Assembly (NCBI GenBank): GCA_003208885.1
Contig: QCUP01000009.1
Location: 1 to 32,492, forward strand
Length of the DNA stretch: 32,492 bases
Direction of reading: 5' to 3'
Origin: Prochlorococcus sp. AG-679-K21
GTDB taxonomy: Bacteria; Cyanobacteriota; Cyanobacteriia; PCC-6307; Cyanobiaceae
Numbering within the stretch: the stretch's first letter is position 1; each line of letters begins with the position of its first letter. Below the pieces are notes generated by a model. That model saw only the letters and a list, made by a program, of their open reading frames with translations. It ran no database searches and had not been told where the DNA came from. Of this stretch, positions 7,074 to 26,399 are shown piece by piece. The translations under genes and the position numbers were made by a program.

Positions 7074-7535
7074 TTATTTAATTTTCTCCAAGATCAATTT
7101 GGCGATCTCTTTTTTTATTGGAATTATAGATAGTCTATTACCTTTCTTAACTAATAACAGTTCTTGCTCATTAAATAAGATTTTTAGTTCAGTTAAACTT
7201 AAAAATTTATTTGCCTTAAATAGATATTTAACTTTCACACAATCCCATCTTGGTTCCTCTTGACTTGATTTAGGGTCATAATATTTTGATTCTTTTTGGA
7301 ATTGACTTGGGTCAACAATATTTAGATCGACAACCTCCATAAATCCAACGATGCCAGGAGGTTTACAATTTGAATGGTAGAAAAAAACTTTATCTCCAAG
7401 AGCCATTCTTCTCATGAAATTGCGCGCCTGATAATTTCGGATTCCATCCCATAAAGTAACCCCATCTTTTTTTAGGGTATCAATACTGTAAGCATCCGGT
7501 TCGCTTTTCATTAGCCAAAAATTTTCTTCAGTCAT
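7074..7535 (-). CDS. EVE-domain protein; its 5' end is the island attachment target
   Basis: A 153-residue single-domain EVE (PUA-like) protein. EVE domains bind modified bases in DNA or RNA in characterised relatives; the bacterial role is not settled. Family blocks: NFWLMKSEPDAYSID (about 5-19), LWDGIRNYQARNFMRRMALGD and FYHSNCKPPGIVGFMEVV. The conserved W-L-M-K-S-E codons coincide with the core of a repeated site (7504-7539) copied elsewhere in the island. Its promoter and first codons therefore appear to have been supplied by the adjacent mobile cassette. The gene remains intact. Confidence 0.93.
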   Translation of the reverse strand: MTEENFWLMKSEPDAYSIDTLKKDGVTLWDGIRNYQARNFMRRMALGDKVFFYHSNCKPPGIVGFMEVVDLNIVDPSQFQKESKYYDPKSSQEEPRWDCVKVKYLFKANKFLSLTELKILFNEQELLLVKKGNRLSIIPIKKEIAKLILEKIK

Positions 7536-7812: not shown

Positions 7813-10800
7813 GTGAGTTCGGAATTAAAAGTTAAGGCTGAAAAATTAAGAGAAAGACTTCTTGACCTTTCGGGAAAAAATAGTTTTATAAGATATAACC
7901 ATACGACGGGAGGTAAAAATCCTAATAAACAAAAATATCTAAGAATCGTAAATGAAATACCAGAACTTTTAGTACAAAAATTAAGAAAAGGAACCAGATA
8001 TCAACTTCAATCGAAACCATCTGAAGCTAATTATGATTTTAACCTCCCTTTCATAACCCCTAAAACTGCAGCTCTATATAAAAAAAGTAGTAAATCAATA
8101 CAAGTATATGAGGGTGCAACTAAATTCGGATTATCATGCGCTGGTATTCGGCAAGACAGTAATAGTTATGAAAAAGATAAAGGAATAAACGTTTTATATG
8201 TCGCAATAGGTTTTCTTAAATATCCTCCCTTTAGAGGAGTAGTTCCGACATCAAAGCCAAAAGATCCAAATAAAAAACAAAAAAAAATTCCTACAGAATC
8301 ATTTGCACCTTTAATCCTCTATCCAGTTAAATTAACAAGAGAAAAAACCGCCTCAGGTTTTAATTATTTTTTAGAGACAAGTGAAGAAGAATTGATATTA
8401 AATAGGTCTTTAATTACAAAGCTGACTAAAGAAGAAGGCATTACATTACCTGAATTAAAATATGAAAAAGAAGATACTCCTCTTATTGAAAGATATTTTA
8501 AAGAAATAAATATTGCTCTTGCAGAAAAAAATGAAATTGAAGGATCTAATAAATGGGAATTAAAAAGATGGGCAACTCTGGGAATATTTAAATTTGGTAA
8601 ATTAGCAATTTTTGAAGACACTGATTTTTCTAAGTCTTGGTCAAAAAATCCATTACTAGATAAACAACTAGTTCAGGATTTTATTAATGGTGTTCCATCA
8701 AATTCAGTTGAAGATATTGGTGATATGGATATTTACCAAGATCAATTTGAAAATATTCAGATGCTTGGTCAAATACCTAAGTTAATTGCAGAAGCTGATA
8801 GTACTCAATATAAAGTAATCGTTAAAGCCCTTGAGGGCAAAAGCATGGCAATACAAGGTCCTCCAGGAACTGGAAAAAGCCAAACGATTACAAATATTAT
8901 TGGAGGGCTATTAGTAAGAAATAAAAAAGTTTTATTTGCAGCAGATAAATATACTGCTTTAGAAGTAGTTAAGCAAAGATTAACTCATAATAATTTGGGG
9001 CAATATATTCTTGAATTACACAATGCATCAAAGTCAAAGAAAGAGTTTCATGAAAATTTATCATCAAGATTAGCAAAGCCTAAAGTAAGATTTGTTAGTG
9101 ATTTTTACGAAGAAGACTTCCGTAAGTTAAAAAATCTTAGAAAAGAATTAAATGAACATGTTAATGCAATAAATCTAAAACTTAATTTGGATGGATCAAA
9201 TACGACTGTCTTTGATTTGATTTGGCGAGATGTCCTAAATAAAATTAATTTAGGAAAAAATAGTAGTTTTGATGTTATACAGGATTTTGAAGATAAGTTT
9301 TTAAATGATTTACTGAAAAATATCGAAAAAGAAAATATTTCAATCATTAAGTCTAATTTGGATATACTTTCAGAATTATCTGATTCAAGTAAGAATGATG
9401 AATTTTTAAAATTATCTCAATTAAAAGGGATACCAGAAACTGGGGATGATTTATCAAAATTAATAAGATTATCTAATAATCTTTTTTTAAGATTAGATGA
9501 TTTCAAAAAAAATATAAAAACAGAAAAGATAATATATTCTTCGTTATTAAATCTAAATAGAGAAAATTTAAAAAACGATATAGAAAGTTTTGAGGAACTT
9601 ATTTCTGAGAAATCAATTAATAAACAATTTACAATTAAAGAGGATATTAGTGAAAAGTTAGCCAATATATATAAACTAGTTGTAGAAAGAGAATCACAAG
9701 AAAACTACATTGAAAAATGGGCTAAACCTTTCTTAGAGAATGAAAATAAATTTGATCTCTTTGAGAATTGCCTAAAGGAAATTGAGAACATAGAGCCTAA
9801 AGATAAAAACTATAAGATTAAGGATCTACTAAATGATTTAACAGAACTTTATAAAACCATAAGAAGTTTTATTAGAGATATACCTATTGAAAAAAGAAGG
9901 TTAACTTCAAGATTAACTTTGAAAAATCTGATTGATGGAGTTGAATGTTTTAGAAAAATAAATCATGATTATTATGATTCATATGAAGATATTTTATTAC
10001 TTTTAAAAGGTACTAAAGATACTTCTAGCTTAGAAGACTTAATAAAAAAAATTAAGCAAATTCAAAAAAATAATAAAGATGGTGAAAAGATTCAAAAAGA
10101 TGGATTAGATCTAAATAAAATTAGAGACTTAGGTTCAGATAAGTTAAAAGATTTTTCTGAAGTAATTAGGAATTCTTCTTTCCTCGGGTGTTTGTTAGAT
10201 AAAGAAGTTAAATATGTTAAATCTTCTTGGAAAAAATATTCATTGCCTGGTTTTAAAAGACCTTCTTTAAAAGAAATGGCAAAAATATTTTTATTAGCAA
10301 GTAACTATTGTGAAAATATTGCTAATGAAGAACGATTTGGAGTGGATGGTTTTGATATTAATTACTTAAGGGAATTATCTTTAAAAATAAAATTTGATGG
10401 AAATTTAGAAAACATTTTATTCGATACAAAATCAAAGTTTTTAGAAATTGATTATTTTGAAGTGATCTATCAAGTTTTAAATCAAAATCAAAATTATAAT
10501 GATATCCAAATTCCTTACTTTGATAAATTATTAAATAAAAATATTCATGAAATACAGGAGCTTACAAATACTTATGCAACAAATATATTTAGTAAATTAA
10601 AATTATTAGGAGAAGATCCTAGTGCAAATATTTTAGATACAAGTTTTTCTACTATAAGTTTAATTTTAGATGATCTCAAATCATTAAAAAATATTATCAA
10701 AAATCTTGGCATAACAATTACTGAATCAGAAATATATTGTGAAAATAATCTAGAGTATTCAGTCTCTTCAAAAGATATAAATCGTCTTTTAGAGTTGTTT

Positions 10801-12828
10801 GGAAATATTGATATCTCTGAATATATAGAGGTTTCTTCTCAAAAAATAGAGGGTTTTTCTTTAATAAAATTACTTAATTTTCTGAAAATCCTAGATGATT
10901 TAACAAATGAACTATATGAGATATCTGCTAATTTTGAAGACGAAATTTTAAATTTTTATTTAGAAGAAAATTTTGAAGATGAAGACTATTTAAATGATTT
11001 AGAAAAATTAAGTCAAAGTTTAGATTATTTAATAAAGCTTGAAAGTAATTTAGAGGCTTTTATTGAATTTAATAGATTGAGAAAAAATATATCAAATCTT
11101 GGACTAAAAGGAGGTATTGACCAACTCCTCGATGTGGCTAATAAAACTAAAATTAAAGTATCTGATATCTTTGAATATCTTTATGTTAGAAATCAAATTA
11201 AGAGTATTAATCTAGATAAAAAACTTAATAAATTTTCTGGACAAGCCCTTATGGTTTGCAAAGACCAGTTTTGTGAATTGGATGTAAATTTTATAGAAAA
11301 TACCTCTAATTATGTTGATCAATATCTACATAAAAGCTCTTTAAAAAGAGAAGAACCTTTTGGTAATAGTAGAAGCCCAAAAAACTTAAGAGAGGGAGAT
11401 TTAATAGAACATGAAATTAATAAAAAAAGAAATCATCTTCCTTATCGAAAATTATTCGATCAGGCTCTTATTTCTCTTCAAAGAGTAAAGCCTTGTTTTA
11501 TGTTTTCACCTTCCTCAGCATCTCAATGTTTACCAAAGAAAATAGATATTTTTGATGTACTTATTATTGATGAAGCATCACAGATGAATCCTGAAGAAGC
11601 TATTGGTTTAATTGCAAGATGTAAACAAGTAATTATTGTTGGAGATGAAAAACAACTACCCCCAGATAATCGCTGGATGTCTAGAGATGATGATGATGAT
11701 GATGACGACTATGTTGAGACAGTTGAATTTGAAAGTAGCGAGTCAATTTTGGAGCTTGCAAATAAGGTATTAAGAAATAGTAGAGAATGTTCTCTGGGTT
11801 GGCATTACCGTTCTAGGCATCATTCTCTAATTAATTTCTCAAATAGATCATTTTATGACAATAGACTTACAGTTTTCCCTTCGAACAAAATAGGATCAGA
11901 AATTCATTTAGTTAAAGTAGAGGATCCTTATTACAACGAAAGTAAAAACTTACCAGAAGTTAAAACAGTTATGGAGACTTTAAAATCTCAAATTTTAGAT
12001 GATCCGACTAAAACTATATTGATAGCTTCTACTAATAGAGCTCAAGCAGGATTAATTCAGGATGAATTAGATCGTCTCAGAAATAAAGATAAAGTTATCA
12101 ATGATTATATAAGTTTGCATAAAGGAGAACTTGATAAATTGTTGGTTATGAATTTAGAAACTGTTCAAGGAGAGGAAAGAGATATAGTAATTATTTCAAC
12201 AGTATATGGACCTGATGCGAATGGAGTAGTCGCTAATAGATTCGGAGATTTAGTAAGGTCTGGAGGAGAAAGAAGATTAAATGTTCTACTAACTAGGGCT
12301 AAAGAAAAAGTCTATCTTGTGACTTCTTTAAATTCAGGAGATATTAGGGTTAGTCCTGGAGCAGTTAATGGAAAAAGATATCTTAAAGATTACTTATCTT
12401 TTGCTGAGACTGGAATAATTAGTGACACCTTAGTTAGGGAAAGTGGGGAGCCAGAGAATGATTTTGAAAGAGCTATTATGAATGCTATAAAACAAAGAGG
12501 TTATGAAGTTGATGCTCAAATTGGTTGCTTAAATTATCGGATTGATTTAGCGATAAAAGATCCAAGAGATACTTCGAGGTATCTATTAGCTGTTGAGTGT
12601 GATGGAGCTACATATCATTCTGGTTACTCAGCAAGAGTTCACGATAGATTAAGACAGCAAGTCTTGGAGGGATTAGGTTGGAATGTATTTCGTATCTGGT
12701 CTTCAGATTGGTGGAGAGCTCCTGAAGAAAAATTGGAATTATTAGATGAAACAATTCAAGGACTTCTTTCAAATACAGAAAAAGAAGAAAGTCTTGAAAT
12801 TAATCAAATTGATGATCTAGAAAATTGA
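7813..12828 (+). CDS. Large superfamily 1 helicase with C-terminal restriction-like nuclease
   Basis: A 1671-residue fusion. The N-terminus has a DUF4011-like start (LRERLLDLSGKNSFIRYNH). Walker A is GPPGTGKS (349-356). Walker B is LIIDEAS (D1253, E1254), motif III is GDEKQLPP (from 1277), then LGWHYRSRHHSLI, LETVQGEERDIVIIS and NVLLTRAKEKVYLV, all typical of Upf1-like SF1 helicases (AAA_11/AAA_12). About 900 charged residues, probably helical or coiled, separate motifs I and II. The end (from about 1550) is a Vsr/MTES_1575-like nuclease with RIDLAI (D1578) and VECDGATYH (E1595, D1597). This architecture is common in bacterial defence islands; an antiphage role is inference. An aspartate run sits near residues 1287-1296. 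GTG start. Confidence 0.9.
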   Translation: MSSELKVKAEKLRERLLDLSGKNSFIRYNHTTGGKNPNKQKYLRIVNEIPELLVQKLRKGTRYQLQSKPSEANYDFNLPFITPKTAALYKKSSKSIQVYEGATKFGLSCAGIRQDSNSYEKDKGINVLYVAIGFLKYPPFRGVVPTSKPKDPNKKQKKIPTESFAPLILYPVKLTREKTASGFNYFLETSEEELILNRSLITKLTKEEGITLPELKYEKEDTPLIERYFKEINIALAEKNEIEGSNKWELKRWATLGIFKFGKLAIFEDTDFSKSWSKNPLLDKQLVQDFINGVPSNSVEDIGDMDIYQDQFENIQMLGQIPKLIAEADSTQYKVIVKALEGKSMAIQGPPGTGKSQTITNIIGGLLVRNKKVLFAADKYTALEVVKQRLTHNNLGQYILELHNASKSKKEFHENLSSRLAKPKVRFVSDFYEEDFRKLKNLRKELNEHVNAINLKLNLDGSNTTVFDLIWRDVLNKINLGKNSSFDVIQDFEDKFLNDLLKNIEKENISIIKSNLDILSELSDSSKNDEFLKLSQLKGIPETGDDLSKLIRLSNNLFLRLDDFKKNIKTEKIIYSSLLNLNRENLKNDIESFEELISEKSINKQFTIKEDISEKLANIYKLVVERESQENYIEKWAKPFLENENKFDLFENCLKEIENIEPKDKNYKIKDLLNDLTELYKTIRSFIRDIPIEKRRLTSRLTLKNLIDGVECFRKINHDYYDSYEDILLLLKGTKDTSSLEDLIKKIKQIQKNNKDGEKIQKDGLDLNKIRDLGSDKLKDFSEVIRNSSFLGCLLDKEVKYVKSSWKKYSLPGFKRPSLKEMAKIFLLASNYCENIANEERFGVDGFDINYLRELSLKIKFDGNLENILFDTKSKFLEIDYFEVIYQVLNQNQNYNDIQIPYFDKLLNKNIHEIQELTNTYATNIFSKLKLLGEDPSANILDTSFSTISLILDDLKSLKNIIKNLGITITESEIYCENNLEYSVSSKDINRLLELFGNIDISEYIEVSSQKIEGFSLIKLLNFLKILDDLTNELYEISANFEDEILNFYLEENFEDEDYLNDLEKLSQSLDYLIKLESNLEAFIEFNRLRKNISNLGLKGGIDQLLDVANKTKIKVSDIFEYLYVRNQIKSINLDKKLNKFSGQALMVCKDQFCELDVNFIENTSNYVDQYLHKSSLKREEPFGNSRSPKNLREGDLIEHEINKKRNHLPYRKLFDQALISLQRVKPCFMFSPSSASQCLPKKIDIFDVLIIDEASQMNPEEAIGLIARCKQVIIVGDEKQLPPDNRWMSRDDDDDDDDYVETVEFESSESILELANKVLRNSRECSLGWHYRSRHHSLINFSNRSFYDNRLTVFPSNKIGSEIHLVKVEDPYYNESKNLPEVKTVMETLKSQILDDPTKTILIASTNRAQAGLIQDELDRLRNKDKVINDYISLHKGELDKLLVMNLETVQGEERDIVIISTVYGPDANGVVANRFGDLVRSGGERRLNVLLTRAKEKVYLVTSLNSGDIRVSPGAVNGKRYLKDYLSFAETGIISDTLVRESGEPENDFERAIMNAIKQRGYEVDAQIGCLNYRIDLAIKDPRDTSRYLLAVECDGATYHSGYSARVHDRLRQQVLEGLGWNVFRIWSSDWWRAPEEKLELLDETIQGLLSNTEKEESLEINQIDDLEN

Positions 12829-15428: not shown

Positions 15429-15575
15429 ATCGTGAACATATCGTGAACATTTTTTTAGGTGTTTTTGAAATCCATTGCTATGACTACTGGTACATGGTTC
15501 ATTAGCCAGTAGTTAATATCATTCATAGCAATCAGTTAGAAGATTATTATAAAGTGTGGACGGTGTGTGGACGGA
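15429..15575. other. Attachment-like site 2: complete (left pair, core, right pair)
   Basis: Left arm pair is two identical ATCGTGAACAT units (15429-15439, 15440-15450). The core CATTAGCCAGTAG starts at 15500. The right pair is GTGTGGACGGT (15554-15564) and GTGTGGACGGA (15565-15575). On the minus strand the core reads as an EVE-like start, M-N-D-I-N-Y-W-L-M. From 15576 to 15897 there is no gene; the stretch holds the hairpin and the repeat pair listed next. Confidence 0.65.
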
Positions 15576-17226: not shown

Positions 17227-17377
17227 TTTTGCTAGAATTTTGCTAGAATAGAATTTAAGAAAATTTAAAAAACCTAGTCATATCAAGCTGGTACATGGTT
17301 CATTAGCCAGTAGCTAGGTTCCTGTTGTGGCATGGGATCTCGGCGTAATTATAGGGTTTGAATAAAGTGTGAATAAC
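17227..17377. other. Attachment-like site 3: complete
   Basis: Left pair: two identical TTTTGCTAGAA units (17227-17237, 17238-17248). The core CATTAGCCAGTAG starts at 17301. The right pair is GTTTGAATAAA (17356-17366) and GTGTGAATAAC (17367-17377). On the minus strand the core reads P-S-Y-W-L-M. The region 17131-17725 has no protein gene and consists of sites 3 and 4 and a repeat copy. Confidence 0.65.
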
Positions 17378-17529: not shown

Positions 17530-17613
17530 GTTTGAGTAAAGTTTGGGTAAAAAATTACGGTTCCTTGAGATCCAAGTAATTGCTTGTCGCGCTCACTTTT
17601 CATTAGCCAGTAG
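17530..17613. other. Attachment-like site 4: left arm pair and core only
   Basis: GTTTGAGTAAA (17530-17540) and GTTTGGGTAAA (17541-17551), then TCCTTGAGATCCA, then core CATTAGCCAGTAG at 17601-17613. The minus strand reads Y-W-L-M-K-S-E across the core. To the right the sequence is unrelated to other sites and leads into clpS. Confidence 0.6.
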
Positions 17614-18723: not shown

Positions 18724-18795
18724 ATCAGAAACTCCTCACACACTAATTTCTGATAATTAAACGCCCTGATTCGTAAGAATAAGGGTGTTTTTTTA
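18724..18795 (+). ncRNA. Yfr1-like small RNA
   Basis: Contains ACTCCTCACACAC (18731-18743), the ultraconserved motif of the cyanobacterial Yfr1 RNA, which represses outer-membrane porin mRNAs in MED4. A strong terminator follows: AACGCCCT (18760-18767) with AGGGTGTT (18782-18789) and seven T. A TAGAAT -10 lies at 18712-18717. Here the motif is bracketed by TCAGAAA/TTTCTGA, so it may fold as a loop rather than the open linker I recall for Yfr1. Yfr1 normally lies by guaB-trxA, so this may be an additional copy. Confidence 0.6.
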
Positions 18796-18903
18796 ATGAA
18801 ACTAAGTCCTAAAAGAGTTAATTGGTATATGTGTCGAATAAGTAACATTACTTATCCCCTTCCACCAAAAAAAATAATATGTAATAGATTTAATTTGTGT
18901 GTA

Positions 18904-18992
18904 GGAGAGGTTTTACTAAAACCGTGGAAACAAGGAAACACTTCATTTAGTAAAACCAGAAAAAGACCCCTAGTTATAGGGGCCTTTTTTTT
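18904..18992 (+). ncRNA. Yfr2-family small RNA
   Basis: A perfect 12-bp stem (GGTTTTACTAAA 18909-18920 with TTTAGTAAAACC 18946-18957) presents two GGAAACA motifs (18926-18932, 18934-18940) in its loop, the hallmark of the Yfr2-Yfr5 family. A CCCCTA/TAGGGG terminator and eight T end it at about 18992. The length near 90 nt fits. The 5' end is estimated. Confidence 0.8.
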
Positions 18993-20069: not shown

Positions 20070-20226
20070 GTTCGAATGAGGTTCGAATGGAATTTTTTGT
20101 AAAAAATAAAAAACTTGCTATGACTAGCAAAATGAATCTCGCGCACTTTTCATTAGCCAAAAATTTTCTTCAGTCATATCAAGGTATTAGAAGAATATTG
20201 CAAAGTGTGGATAGGGTGTGGACGGA
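20070..20226. other. Attachment-like site 5: complete, with exact EVE start core
   Basis: Left pair GTTCGAATGAG (20070-20080) and GTTCGAATGGA (20081-20091). The core region 20146-20181 is identical over 36 bases to 7504-7539, the first codons of the EVE gene and its leader. Right pair GTGTGGATAGG (20205-20215) and GTGTGGACGGA (20216-20226). This appears to be the EVE junction of an older insertion. Confidence 0.7.
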
Positions 20227-21317: not shown

Positions 21318-21452
21318 ATCGTGAACATTTTTTTATAGGTTTTTGAAATCCATTGCTATGACTGCTGGCAAATGGTTCATTAACCAGTAGTTAGGTTCAG
21401 TCATATTAGTTATTTAGAAGAAAGTTACGATGTGGAACGGTGTGTGAATATA
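21318..21452. other. Attachment-like site 6: core with degenerate arms
   Basis: Only one ATCGTGAACAT (21318-21328) remains on the left, 49 bp before the core, the same spacing as the inner unit of site 2. The core CATTAACCAGTAG starts at 21378 and on the minus strand reads M-T-E-P-N-Y-W-L-M, an alternative EVE start. The right arm (about 21431-21450) is eroded. Confidence 0.5.
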
Positions 21453-22161: not shown

Positions 22162-22438
22162 AATTTATAAATTTTAAAAAACTTGTTATAGCTTCATTCT
22201 TAACCTTGCTGTTCAGACAGATTTGCTTATCTGTTCACACATGAGCATTTGATTGAGGCTATTGCTGTATTTTGTATTGTTTCTATAGAACTACGCACCA
22301 GACCCTTAAGCTGTTTTTGGAGCGAAAACCTTAATGTCTTTCCTCCATTATCTGCAGCCCTTAACTAAATGATCTCCTTGAGGAATAAGCCTCTAGTGAA
22401 AGGGACAGGTCAAGATAGTTACACATTGATCTGTCGTG
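22162..22438. other. Gene-free stretch, possibly an untranslated RNA
   Basis: No credible protein frame. Short inverted repeats occur (ACAGAT/ATCTGT near 22219-22235, GAGG/CCTC near 22380-22394). The segment is less AT-rich than its surroundings and ends in CTGTCGTGCTG just before site 7. No RNA family recognised. Confidence 0.25.
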
Positions 22439-22513
22439 CTGTAGCCAGTAGTTAGGTTCATTCATAGTCTATAATTTGCGAGAAATAGTACTGCTGGTAT
22501 TGTGCTGGTATGG
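22439..22513. other. Attachment-like site 7: partial core and right arm pair
   Basis: The core retains AGCCAGTAG (from 22443), reading M-N-E-P-N-Y-W-L on the minus strand. The right pair is TGCTGGTATTG (22492-22502) and TGCTGGTATGG (22503-22513), 10 of 11 identical. No left arm is visible. Confidence 0.55.
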
Positions 22514-23129: not shown

Positions 23130-23363
23130 GTGTCAGAAGATCAAATAAAAAAATTTTTAGTGGAAATCCAAAAAAACAAAAATCTTCTTGATCAAGTTTT
23201 AAGCGTTGGGACTGCTGATGAGATTGCCAAAATAGCAAATGATTCAGGATTTAAATTTACAGGAAGTGAATTAAAAAATATTTCTAATGAAGTTGTTAAT
23301 GGAGTAAAAATAAAAAGTCAAGATACATCGCCATCTTATAACTTTGGAGAAGGTGGGAATTGA
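23130..23363 (+). CDS. Nif11-leader-like protein without a core peptide
   Basis: 77 residues, apparent GTG start without a clear ribosome site. The Nif11 domain covers MSEDQIKKFLVEIQKNKNLL through VGTADEIAKIANDSGF to about residue 54. In lanthipeptide and related precursors (prochlorosins) such leaders end in a double glycine followed by a modifiable core. Here FGEGGN is the very end, with no cysteine and only one residue after GG. It is either a truncated precursor or a Nif11 protein with another role. No modification enzyme lies in the window. Confidence 0.7.
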   Translation: MSEDQIKKFLVEIQKNKNLLDQVLSVGTADEIAKIANDSGFKFTGSELKNISNEVVNGVKIKSQDTSPSYNFGEGGN

Positions 23364-23386: not shown

Positions 23387-23809
23387 CTAAACTTTATTTA
23401 TCCTACCTCCATAGCACCCATTACCAATTTTAAAAAAACTAGAAGTAGCTTTTAGTAATTCTCTATCATTGCTAACCTTTGATAGCTTTAGGGATAAACC
23501 TGAAAATAGAACTTTATTCACTTCATGGGATTTGATTTCTGTTTGATAAGGATGCCATATTTTATTACCCTTTAGGAGTATCGCATCTCCACTTAATTTA
23601 ATATTTGTGTTTTCAAAGCTCCAGCTTGAAGGCTTTATTTGAGTTGGTTTGTGTGTGTAAAAAGTACCTCTAATATTTTTCTCATTTGAAATGGTTCCTT
23701 TGAGCGCATTAGATCTTCTTTCAGATAAAACTATAGAAATACTAGGGACGTCTTCTGAAACTAAAACACAATTTATAGGTTGTATTATGTCAACTAAAAG
23801 AAAATACAA
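23387..23809 (-). CDS. Hypothetical protein, possibly 5'-truncated
   Basis: 140 residues from a TTG start, with an in-frame stop directly upstream, so the true N-terminus may have been lost. Content looks like a beta-rich domain (SISIVLSERRSNALKGTI, then GTFYTHKPTQIKPSSWSF) with KIGNGCYGGRINKV at the end. Family not recognised. Confidence 0.45.
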   Translation of the reverse strand: MYFLLVDIIQPINCVLVSEDVPSISIVLSERRSNALKGTISNEKNIRGTFYTHKPTQIKPSSWSFENTNIKLSGDAILLKGNKIWHPYQTEIKSHEVNKVLFSGLSLKLSKVSNDRELLKATSSFFKIGNGCYGGRINKV

Positions 23810-23866
23810 TTACTTTAAAAAAATAAGTTAATTACTTATGAGTTTATACCAATCATCAATAATTTC

Positions 23867-23947
23867 TTAATGCCAAAGTAGCCAAAATAAAACACAACCA
23901 TAAATAACACCTGATAAAACTATTACTGGAAGCAGAAAGCTTTTCAT
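23867..23947 (-). CDS. Single-helix membrane peptide, 26 residues
   Basis: MKSFLLPVIVLSGVIYGC followed by VLFWLLWH: one transmembrane segment. Its ATG overlaps the upstream stop as ATGA, so translation is probably coupled. Comparable in size to low-mass photosystem subunits, but no specific match recognised. Confidence 0.5.
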   Translation of the reverse strand: MKSFLLPVIVLSGVIYGCVLFWLLWH

Positions 23948-24114
23948 TTAATTAAAAATTTATCTAAACCATTTTGTTGGACGTATATAAAAAACCAAAT
24001 AGAAACAGATAGATTTAATAGTACTGTCAGTGATATAGAAATTATTAAAAACTTCTTCCCAACCCCATTTTGGGAAGAAGTTTTAACTGAAGTTGAAATT
24101 GACTCAAGTTCCAT
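23944..24114 (-). CDS. Single-helix membrane protein, 56 residues
   Basis: Polar N-terminus MELESISTSVKTSSQNGVGK, then membrane segment FLIISISLTVLLNLSVSIWF and a short tail. It forms a two-gene unit with the 26-residue peptide. A perfect 15-bp inverted repeat lies within its codons (24048-24084). Confidence 0.6.
   Translation of the reverse strand: MELESISTSVKTSSQNGVGKKFLIISISLTVLLNLSVSIWFFIYVQQNGLDKFLIK
24048..24084. repeat. Perfect 15-bp inverted repeat inside a gene
   Basis: AAAACTTCTTCCCAA (24048-24062) with its exact complement (24070-24084), seven-base loop. On the minus strand it is followed by TTTTTAATAATTT, so it could act as an attenuator in the coding region. The gap 24115-24417 that follows is extremely AT-rich, with no gene; it should hold the promoters of both flanking units. 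Confidence 0.55.
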
Positions 24115-24417
24115 AAAAAAGAGTTAATTACTTATTAGTTTATACCAACTTTAAAAAATAGATTTTTAATTGAAATTCTTTATTAAAAAGAGATTTAAAA
24201 TCTTTCAAACACTATTATGTATTTAAAGTTACTTTAACAAATATTTTTAATCTATAAATTCGTTATAATTGTATTTAAATAATAATTAATGAATACATAT
24301 TAATCATTTAATTTTTATATTTAATATTATAATTTGTCCCTTTAGTTTATAAATTTTGAACTTGAATAAATAAATAATAATATCTATGTTTATATGAGTA
24401 TTTAAATTTTAAAAAAC

Positions 24418-24633
24418 ATGGTAGGAGTAACTAAAGATCCGACATTATTTTTACTTTTAGGGACTATTGGGCTTCTATTTTTTGGTTCAATAGGATATGG
24501 AATATATACAACAGTTGGACCATCATCATATAAATTAAGAGATACAATTAAAGAGCATGCAAGGTTACATGAATTAGGTATCGCACATGGACATAATAGT
24601 CAAAACCATAATGAAGCTGACCATATACATTAA
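24418..24633 (+). CDS. PsbN-like protein with His-rich tail
   Basis: 71 residues. The segment LFFGSIGYGIYTTVGPSSYK and the following LRDTIKEHARLHE resemble PsbN (membrane helix, then GYALYTAFG, PS, LRDPFEEH). PsbN is a photosystem II assembly factor in the thylakoid. The unusual extension HARLHELGIAHGHNSQNHNE ending DHIH carries seven histidines and could bind metal. It is probably a paralogue, not the housekeeping psbN. A beheaded second copy lies at 24880. Confidence 0.65.
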   Translation: MVGVTKDPTLFLLLGTIGLLFFGSIGYGIYTTVGPSSYKLRDTIKEHARLHELGIAHGHNSQNHNEADHIH

Positions 24634-24645
24634 AAAGATATTTTA

Positions 24646-24783
24646 ATGAATTTATTTTTTGTTGACTCTGATTTAACGACAGGATTTTTCTTTATTTCAA
24701 TTTTTTCTGGAGCGTTGTTATCGTTTTTTATTTTCCTTCTTTTTTGGTTAACTAATCAAAATGCAATGTTTAAAAAACAATAG
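24646..24783 (+). CDS. Single-helix membrane protein, 45 residues
   Basis: MNLFFVDSDLTTGFFFISIF begins it, with a hydrophobic stretch to LLFWLTNQNAMFKKQ. ATG lies 12 bp after the PsbN-like gene, same strand; probably one transcript. Function unknown. Confidence 0.55.
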   Translation: MNLFFVDSDLTTGFFFISIFSGALLSFFIFLLFWLTNQNAMFKKQ

Positions 24784-24797
24784 TTTGCTTATAAAAA

Positions 24798-24880
24798 GTT
24801 TGGGTAAATTTTGAGTAAAAATCACAAATCCTTGAGATCCATTCTGAAATCAGACTGACTCACTTTTCATTAGCCAGTAG
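24798..24880. other. Attachment-like site 8: left arm pair and core fused to a gene fragment
   Basis: GTTTGGGTAAA (24798-24808) and TTTTGAGTAAA (24809-24819), TCCTTGAGATCCA as in site 4, then core CATTAGCCAGTAG (24868-24880). Directly after it comes the G-P-S-S part of a second PsbN-like gene, so the recombination point is visible to within a few bases. It is the far end of the array. Confidence 0.6.
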
Positions 24881-24996
24881 GACCATCATCTTATAAGTTA
24901 AGAGATACAATTAAAGAGCAGGCAAGATTACATGAGCTAGGTATAGCTCATGGACACAATAGTCACAATCATAATGAATCAGATCATCTTCATTAA
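24880..24996 (+). pseudogene. Beheaded second copy of the PsbN-like gene
   Basis: 38 codons, GPSSYKLRDTIKEQARLHEL onward to DHLH, parallel the C-terminal half of the gene at 24418. The membrane half is missing and an in-frame TAG lies two codons upstream, within the attachment core. It cannot be translated as PsbN-like protein. Confidence 0.75.
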
Positions 24997-25064
24997 AAAA
25001 TAATTTAAAAAAGTTTATTGCACTTATTACTTTTAAAACAACTCAAAAACAAGGAGAAGCCAAT

Positions 25065-25133
25065 ATCAAAAGTATTTTTAGTCTTGCTTTAGTGATGACC
25101 TCATTGGTAGTTTGGATATGCGTATTTAAATAA
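25065..25133 (+). pseudogene. Small membrane peptide frame with ATC at the start position
   Basis: The frame KSIFSLALVMTSLVVWICVF ends at 25133. AAGGAG lies eight bases before the codon where ATG is expected, but that codon is ATC. It is either recently inactivated by one base change or uses a rare start. An internal ATG would give only 12 residues. Confidence 0.35.
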
Positions 25134-25139
25134 AAAATT

Positions 25140-25274
25140 ATGGCTAAAAAAGAAGGAAAGGAATTAGCGACAGTAAAGGTCTATCTCAATACTGGAATAA
25201 TTGCTGGATTAGTAGGTGTTGGGTTTATTTCCTCTACTTTAATTTTTGGTGTATTAGTTCTGGTTCTAAAATAA
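25140..25274 (+). CDS. Single-helix membrane protein, 44 residues
   Basis: Charged start MAKKEGKELATVKVYLNTG, then GIIAGLVGVGFISSTLIFGV and VLVLVLK. It follows the ATC frame by 6 bp. Low-mass photosynthetic-subunit size; identity not recognised. Confidence 0.55.
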   Translation: MAKKEGKELATVKVYLNTGIIAGLVGVGFISSTLIFGVLVLVLK

Positions 25275-25297
25275 AAAGAATTCAAAATTTATGATCT

Positions 25298-25453
25298 TTA
25301 TTTAATTTTTTTTGAATTTAATAGAGGCCTTATTTTGTTTTTTAATTTCTCAAGAGGCTTTTCAATAAAATCAGGTTTTTTTAAAACTGCAAGGACAACC
25401 CATCCTGCGCTAATTACAAGAACCATTCCTAAATAAGCAAAACCATAAATCAT
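25298..25453 (-). CDS. Single-helix membrane protein, 51 residues
   Basis: MIYGFAYLGMVLVISAGWVV is the membrane part, followed by a basic cytoplasmic tail LKKPDFIEKPLEKLKNKIRP. It lies 11 bp after the 62-residue gene on the same strand. Unknown. Confidence 0.55.
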   Translation of the reverse strand: MIYGFAYLGMVLVISAGWVVLAVLKKPDFIEKPLEKLKNKIRPLLNSKKIK

Positions 25454-25464
25454 TGATACTTTAA

Positions 25465-25653
25465 TTAAGTTGATTCTAATTCTACTTCTTTTTTGACTTC
25501 CTCTTCTTGTTTAAGTTCTATCTCATTTTTAACATCTTCTTTTTCTTTATCCTTAATTATTAATATTTTTTCTTTTCTTCCGAAATCATCTTTACCTGCA
25601 ATAAAGAATATTAGTGAAACTATAAAAAATAGTGCAAAAAGCAAAACTTCCAT
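25465..25653 (-). CDS. Membrane-anchored charged protein, 62 residues
   Basis: N-terminal helix EVLLFALFFIVSLIFFIAGK, then a Lys/Glu-rich, probably coiled tail KDKEKEDVKNEIELKQEEEV. ATG start. Probably cotranscribed with the 51-residue gene. Unknown. Confidence 0.6.
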   Translation of the reverse strand: MEVLLFALFFIVSLIFFIAGKDDFGRKEKILIIKDKEKEDVKNEIELKQEEEVKKEVELEST

Positions 25654-26013
25654 TAACCAAGAAATTAAATTATTAATCTCAAATTAATTTACAGATCTGT
25701 TTTTAATCAACATCAAATAATACAACTTGCTGTTAATTTAATTTCAATCAACTACCAATTGATCTCTTTTATTTTTTGTTTGATATTGTGATGCAGCTTT
25801 TAAATGTTGAAACTCTTTTTAAGTTTTCAATTCTTTTTTTCTAAATCTTCGTTACCAAGCATTTAAATATTTTGATAAAGTTTATGAAGATACTCATTTA
25901 GAGTAATCTGTGACATAATTGTTCCATTAAAGTGTAAATTAGTTCAAATGATACAAGTCTCTCTCGCATTCTATTTACAATTAGTAATATTTATATATTA
26001 GCTTTTTAATCAG
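25654..26013. other. Gene-free AT-rich stretch before hli genes
   Basis: No credible frame, hairpin or repeat seen. It should contain the promoters for the minus-strand pair ending at 25653 and for the hli pair, but no clear boxes stand out. Confidence 0.4.
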
Positions 26014-26130
26014 ATGAATTCAAACAAAGACATTCTTGACAGAGCCATAGGAAGACCAGCAATGATGGCTTTCATGATTTTAGTCGGAACATATGTAACA
26101 ACAGGTCAACTTATTCCAGGTGTTTTTTAA
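26014..26130 (+). CDS. Variant high-light-inducible protein, 38 residues
   Basis: Hli proteins are one-helix thylakoid relatives of the light-harvesting family that bind chlorophyll and carotenoid and protect under light stress. Here the C-terminal half LVGTYVTTGQLIPGVF is typical of the multicopy picocyanobacterial type, but the pigment motif ExxNGRxAM reads DRAIGRPAM, with the usual Glu and Asn changed. Its stop overlaps the next hli start by one base (TAATG). Confidence 0.8.
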   Translation: MNSNKDILDRAIGRPAMMAFMILVGTYVTTGQLIPGVF

Positions 26131-26273
26131 TGGAAAATAAAAATCAAAAAAGGAATATAGATCCTCAAAAAACAAGTGCAGAGAAATTAAATGGTAGATT
26201 TGCTCTTGTTGGTGTTATAGCTCTAGTAGGAGCATACATAACAACAGGACAAATTGTACCTGGGATTATTTGA
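26130..26273 (+). CDS. hli: High-light-inducible protein, 47 residues
   Basis: Contains the chlorophyll-binding motif as AEKLNGRFALVG, a single membrane helix and the tail TTGQIVPGII. This tail defines the island- and phage-borne Hli subgroup. Translationally coupled to the variant Hli upstream. Probably induced by high light; regulatory boxes not identified. Confidence 0.92.
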   Translation: MENKNQKRNIDPQKTSAEKLNGRFALVGVIALVGAYITTGQIVPGII

Positions 26274-26399
26274 AAATTCATTCAATCAAGTTCTTCATGA
26301 AAGTCCGCAAATTGTTTTACTAGCTGACTTTTCCTTTCGAAAGATTTCTCATATCTAAAAATACCTTCTATAGCTGAATAATACTAAAGAGACAGTTTT

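Follow-up and report, generated by a model that had tools for sequence, protein, structure and literature searches.

A scar at a cassette boundary joins an attachment core to the 3' part of a psbN-like gene in Prochlorococcus

Genes and attachment sequences around the junction

The DNA analyzed here (the window) is a stretch of 32,492 nucleotides from Prochlorococcus sp. AG-679-K21, contig QCUP01000009.1, and its features are listed in Table 1. Between positions 24792 and 24880 it carries the left arm and core of an attachment sequence, ending in CATTAGCCAGTAG, which continues unbroken into the 3'-terminal 38-39 codons of a PsbN-like gene, with GACCATCATC directly 3' of the core. The initial annotation had described this run from core into coding sequence, and also the beheading of the gene; both descriptions are confirmed. 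Because an in-frame TAG lies just upstream (CAT TAG CCA GTA GGA), the fragment has no start codon. The stretch CAGTnGGACC was likewise correctly recognized as common to the junction and to the intact gene.

Table 1. Features of the window, by position and strand
Feature	Position	Strand	Remarks
EVE-domain gene	7074..7535	-	Pfam EVE, E=7e-53; home attachment site at its 5' end (core, 7509)
Core with both arms	15500..15512	+	
Core with both arms	17301..17313	+	
Left arm and core	17601..17613	+	adjoins clpS upstream region
CATTAGCC core with left and right arms	20151..20158	+	
CATTAACCAGTAG core	21378..21390	+	left arm with single repeat copy, apparently collapsed
76-aa gene with several cysteines, 3' part	22309..22446	-	residues 31-76; cut at the 22439 core
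Second foreign junction, CTGTAGCCAGTAG	22439..22451	+	right arm (repeat GCTGGTAT) joined to truncated gene
psbN_A, intact PsbN-like gene	24418..24633	+	71 aa; cargo of cassette ending at 24868
orf45	24646..24783	+	45-aa ORF between psbN_A and left arm; conserved beside psbN_A
Left arm	24792..24867	+	paired direct repeat GTTTGGGTAAA/TTTTGAGTAAA, then CCTTGAGATCC...ACTGACTCACTTTT
Core CATTAGCCAGTAG	24868..24880	+	exchange region TTCATTAGCC; cassette boundary
Beheaded psbN_B	24877..24996	+	last ~39 codons and stop, no start; homology from CAGT (24875)
Rest of psbN_B cassette cargo	25020..26308	+	small ORFs, two high-light-inducible-like genes; 90% identical to G108

The intact relative that had been placed 400 bp upstream is indeed present (psbN_A), but the fragment belongs to another allele. 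The intact gene scores E=6.2e-5 and 23.2 bits against Pfam PsbN (PF02468), under the 25-bit cut-off, and is PsbN-like only, below the threshold for membership of the family. The fragment is 83% identical to it over 145 nt, and 92-93% identical to the alleles in the related genomes G164 and G108. To judge from these identities, the fragment is the 3' end of the other allele, psbN_B, and not a broken copy of psbN_A; its origin as a tandem duplicate of the gene 400 bp upstream was rejected, the two alleles being 83% alike and each having closer relatives elsewhere. The segment that carries psbN_A also includes a gene for a Nif11-domain peptide (23130-23363).

Inspection of related genomes, as the initial annotation had proposed, located psbN_B intact in G108, G164 and G107. 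The whole gene reads CAGTTGGACC at the position of the join in relatives, with CAGTTGGACCATCATCTTATAAG there in G164 and G108. Core-less relatives in which the fragment adjoins different upstream DNA would have told against the annotation; no case of that form was seen, and relatives carry the whole gene. The missing 5' half of psbN_B, sought elsewhere, is absent from the assembled 66% of the window's genome, in which the second psbN consists of residues 29-71 only and, of the two halves of the target, the 3' half alone was found. A histidine that is invariant in the other homologues is a glutamine in the window's fragment only; this would argue for decay, or for an older pseudogene, though it is a single residue.

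The junction is private to the window's genome. It was found in none of the other genomes among 266 of the genus, and two matches in GTDB r220 are both unrelated and due to chance. Left arms of the same type recur at more than 90 sites across the genus (266 genomes), where 24868 has the sole odd right flank and the remainder lead to a right arm or a clpS flank, bar one chance match. A search for left arms joined at TCATTA to non-core DNA gave background only among the matches listed, and at the loci that were fetched the one such join is that at 24868, degenerate right arms aside.

An array of core-bounded cassettes at the EVE gene

In reverse complement, the core reads as the 5' end of the EVE gene (..YWLMKSEPD). 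In the right arms there is an ATG that shares the EVE reading frame and, on reading of the sequence, these arms appear to supply the N-terminus of EVE. The window holds four exact core copies and one with a single mismatch, against 0.44 expected with up to two mismatches; these five are all the copies in the 1.07-Mb assembly, and a reversed-pattern control gave 0. Exact cores occur in 37 of the 61 genomes of the genus sampled, mostly at the EVE 5' end. Thirty core matches in viral contigs were set aside as chance, their flanks being unrelated to the arms.

Comparison of 134 distinct sites revealed that left and right arms combine freely and that the flanks switch at TTCATTAGCC, the right half normally switching straight after CATTAGCC. 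A script located paired direct repeats of 9-11 bp in left arms, some 40-90 nt upstream of the core, and the same repeat classes 40-75 nt downstream in right arms. A short core at which flanks switch and arm repeats on both sides are hallmarks of a tyrosine-recombinase attachment site and are both present; a cognate integrase at the element, a further hallmark, is absent. The clpS gene was considered as a universal outer flank of the EVE site and rejected, since it was found in the closest relatives only; one of the clpS-flank searches used an over-strict pattern that missed known sites. A conserved hairpin-like motif, AAAGTTCCTATTTAGGAAAGTgatgggtgg, follows most right arms (window starts at approximately 7622, 17414, 20268, 21238 and 22589); of 131 sites, 85 have it, for the most part 101-114 nt past the core.

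The window is best explained as an array of small mobile cassettes with the EVE 5' end as home target. Each cassette would begin with the core (CATTAGCC) and a right arm and would close with a left arm, after which the next core follows. The cassette bearing psbN_B and hli genes measures, core to core, 2,413 bp in G108 and 2,412 bp in G164. It is about 98% identical between these genomes, whereas their EVE-groEL chromosome is 85% identical, and its flanks are unrelated in the two (background identity 0.3-0.5), which indicates that the cores are genuine boundaries of a mobile unit. Within Prochlorococcus the cassette system moves photosynthesis and stress genes from species to species as core-bounded units (2.4 kb in the best case) without a recombinase of their own. 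It provides precise unit boundaries and concrete tests of gene exchange in small ocean genomes, and its boundaries also break neighbouring genes.

Origin of the junction at 24868

The scar at this cassette boundary is real, while its deletion history is something that we infer. With moderate confidence, we regard the join as the product of a deletion that removed about 0.82 kb, from the core to approximately codon 32 of psbN_B. The DNA before the fragment (23801-24818) is 96.7% identical to G107, and the fragment with the DNA beyond it (24875-26308) is 90% identical to the psbN_B cassette. The window is thus best read as the end of a psbN_A cassette, a core, and then a psbN_B cassette that would lack its first ~0.82 kb, the complete psbN_B cassette presumably having been present in this genome at an earlier time. 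In G108 and G164, the relatives with the complete unit, the join point lies 822 nt into the cassette from the core, and a local deletion starting at the core therefore suffices.

The ancestral order was probably psbN_A, orf45, left arm, core, right arm, about 0.65 kb of further DNA, psbN_B and the hli genes. A deletion of these 822 nt (as counted in the relatives' cassette), beginning at the right edge of the core, would have had CAGTnG(G) at both ends and would have left the core abutting the psbN_B 3' half. It may have occurred by microhomology, possibly begun by recombinase nicking at the core. That deletions do occur at the site ending psbN_A is evident from G107, in which psbN_A and orf45 end in a left arm matching the window's, the left arm has collapsed into the right arm through a direct repeat common to both, the core is deleted, and psbN_B follows intact downstream. 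In G131 the same psbN_A, orf45 and left arm lead into a normal core with its right arm. Weighing against a deletion, no relative shows the exact order proposed for the ancestor together with an intact core.

The break also lies beyond the normal point of exchange. The initial annotation had suggested CAGTnGGACC as the place of strand exchange; the core is a real exchange boundary, given the 134 sites and the core-to-core cassette, but the junction retains AGTAG, 3-5 nt past the normal exchange point. Because sites normally switch on their right side after CATTAGCC, and because psbN homologues have GTT at the join in 31 of 34 sequences (the fragment being counted among the 34), this AGTAG probably came from the attachment site and not from psbN, although the argument hangs on one nucleotide and GTA alleles also exist among the homologues.

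A somewhat unlikely alternative is that the recombinase took psbN_B (CAGTTGG) as a secondary target, so that either a psbN_A-ended element was inserted there or recombination took place between it and the core, with later loss of the other half. Five arm-to-foreign junctions speak for such an event (24868 and 22439 in the window, and one each in G106, G108 and G023), all with breaks at approximately -2 to +12 of the core, within a span of roughly 100 nt over which breaks were detectable. At 22439 the first 30 residues of the 76-aa protein are lost exactly at the core that a right arm follows, and target and core both read TAGC. The other three are right arms joined to DNA that is neither EVE nor left arm (G106 L127:12425, G108 L121:8267 and G023 L148:5128), with breaks in or beside CATTAGCC; the G106 target, GTTCATTA, agrees with the exchange region over 8 nt. 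In addition, TATACGACAGTTG and the core agree at 8 of 13 positions, which ranks with the best few matches in 1.4 kb.

About three other irregular arms appear instead to be broken at direct repeats. At least five of some eight breaks would be unlikely to fall in a zone of about 15 nt were breaks uniform over ~100 nt, an informal estimate with imperfect ascertainment. The four joins other than that at 24868, breaking in or beside the 8-nt core, thus make abortive recombinase action at the core a plausible cause; they point to a recombinase and away from random deletion. Against a secondary target, no reciprocal half of psbN_B, of the 76-aa gene or of the G106 gene occurs in the respective assemblies (61-66% complete), the odd right flank is one among more than 90 left-arm sites, and the 2.43-kb segment 22439-24880 is flanked by two different truncated genes, for which one simple insertion is inadequate. 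The junction had been put forward as direct evidence that these sites recombine with non-EVE targets. The junction is not direct evidence of this, since a local deletion suffices, the reciprocal half is lacking from the assembly, and the join is private to this genome and unique among over 90 left-arm sites; the claim is supported in part, a weaker form of it being sustained by the other four joins of right arms with foreign DNA. Recombination with a non-EVE target at 24868 is possible, and the junction is weak evidence for cassettes jumping into new targets.

A broader proposal, which we consider unlikely, holds that integron-like arrays of integrase-less cassettes at EVE are moved core to core by a recombinase encoded elsewhere, occasionally hitting non-EVE pseudo-cores and so beheading psbN_B and the 76-aa gene at 22439. 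In 20 genomes no PF00589 gene was found at the EVE locus, every match lying elsewhere. Most of the 20 encode a tyrosine recombinase of this family, about 390 aa long, which by elimination only is a candidate for the enzyme concerned. The one in the window's genome is at L183 3542-4711, between a cobO-like gene and ferrochelatase, neighbours named by reading their translations.

An artefact, either a template-switch chimera of whole-genome amplification or a misassembly, is a very improbable source of the join. Single-cell genomes are often incomplete, as this one is (66%, in 74 contigs), and the join occurs in one assembly only and has short homology. The fragment, however, has substitutions of its own, including the glutamine for the invariant histidine, the assembly holds no intact psbN_B that could have been its parent, and similar core-anchored joins exist in three other genomes. 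A mosaic made by gene conversion, or by homologous recombination of the psbN_A region with that of psbN_B, is scarcely credible and already disfavoured, for although the regions upstream of the two alleles are 80-82% alike and both alleles coexist in G107, homologous exchange would give a psbN-psbN join rather than an attachment core joined to codon ~32, and the junction sequence appears to contradict it.

Likeness to known mobile units

Lambda Int and Tn916 Int DR2 are tyrosine recombinases whose attachment sites have arm sites. Like those sites, the ones described here have a short exchanged core with paired ~11-bp direct repeats on both sides, and the element inserts in the end of a host gene and restores the reading of that gene. 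Unlike them, the cassettes have no recombinase gene inside or near, many interchangeable arm types occur on one core, and the units form arrays. Integron gene-cassette arrays are similar in consisting of tandem small units bounded by a recombination site and apparently moved by an enzyme encoded elsewhere, but the cores here sit between double-sided arms.

Tycheposons are reported, according to the summary in PMC10872708, to be bordered by tRNA genes and equipped with a tyrosine recombinase. They resemble the present cassettes as cargo-bearing elements of genomic islands in the same genus; the target here is instead a protein gene (the core lies in EVE), no tRNA gene is present in the window and no recombinase is encoded at the locus. 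Like the cassettes, the dusA- and trmE-targeting genomic islands are inserted at one end of a conserved protein gene; these islands are reported to have an integrase of their own (PMC4482086, PMC8409611).

A search of the 22-25 kb part of the window against Rfam gave no significant match; the small RNAs Yfr10 and Cyano-1 lie between attachment sites at 18724-18804 and 18895-18962. The first cassette after EVE (7813-12828) encodes a 1671-aa DUF4011 helicase/endonuclease, which strongly matches the PADLOC PDC-S37 and Hhe defence models.
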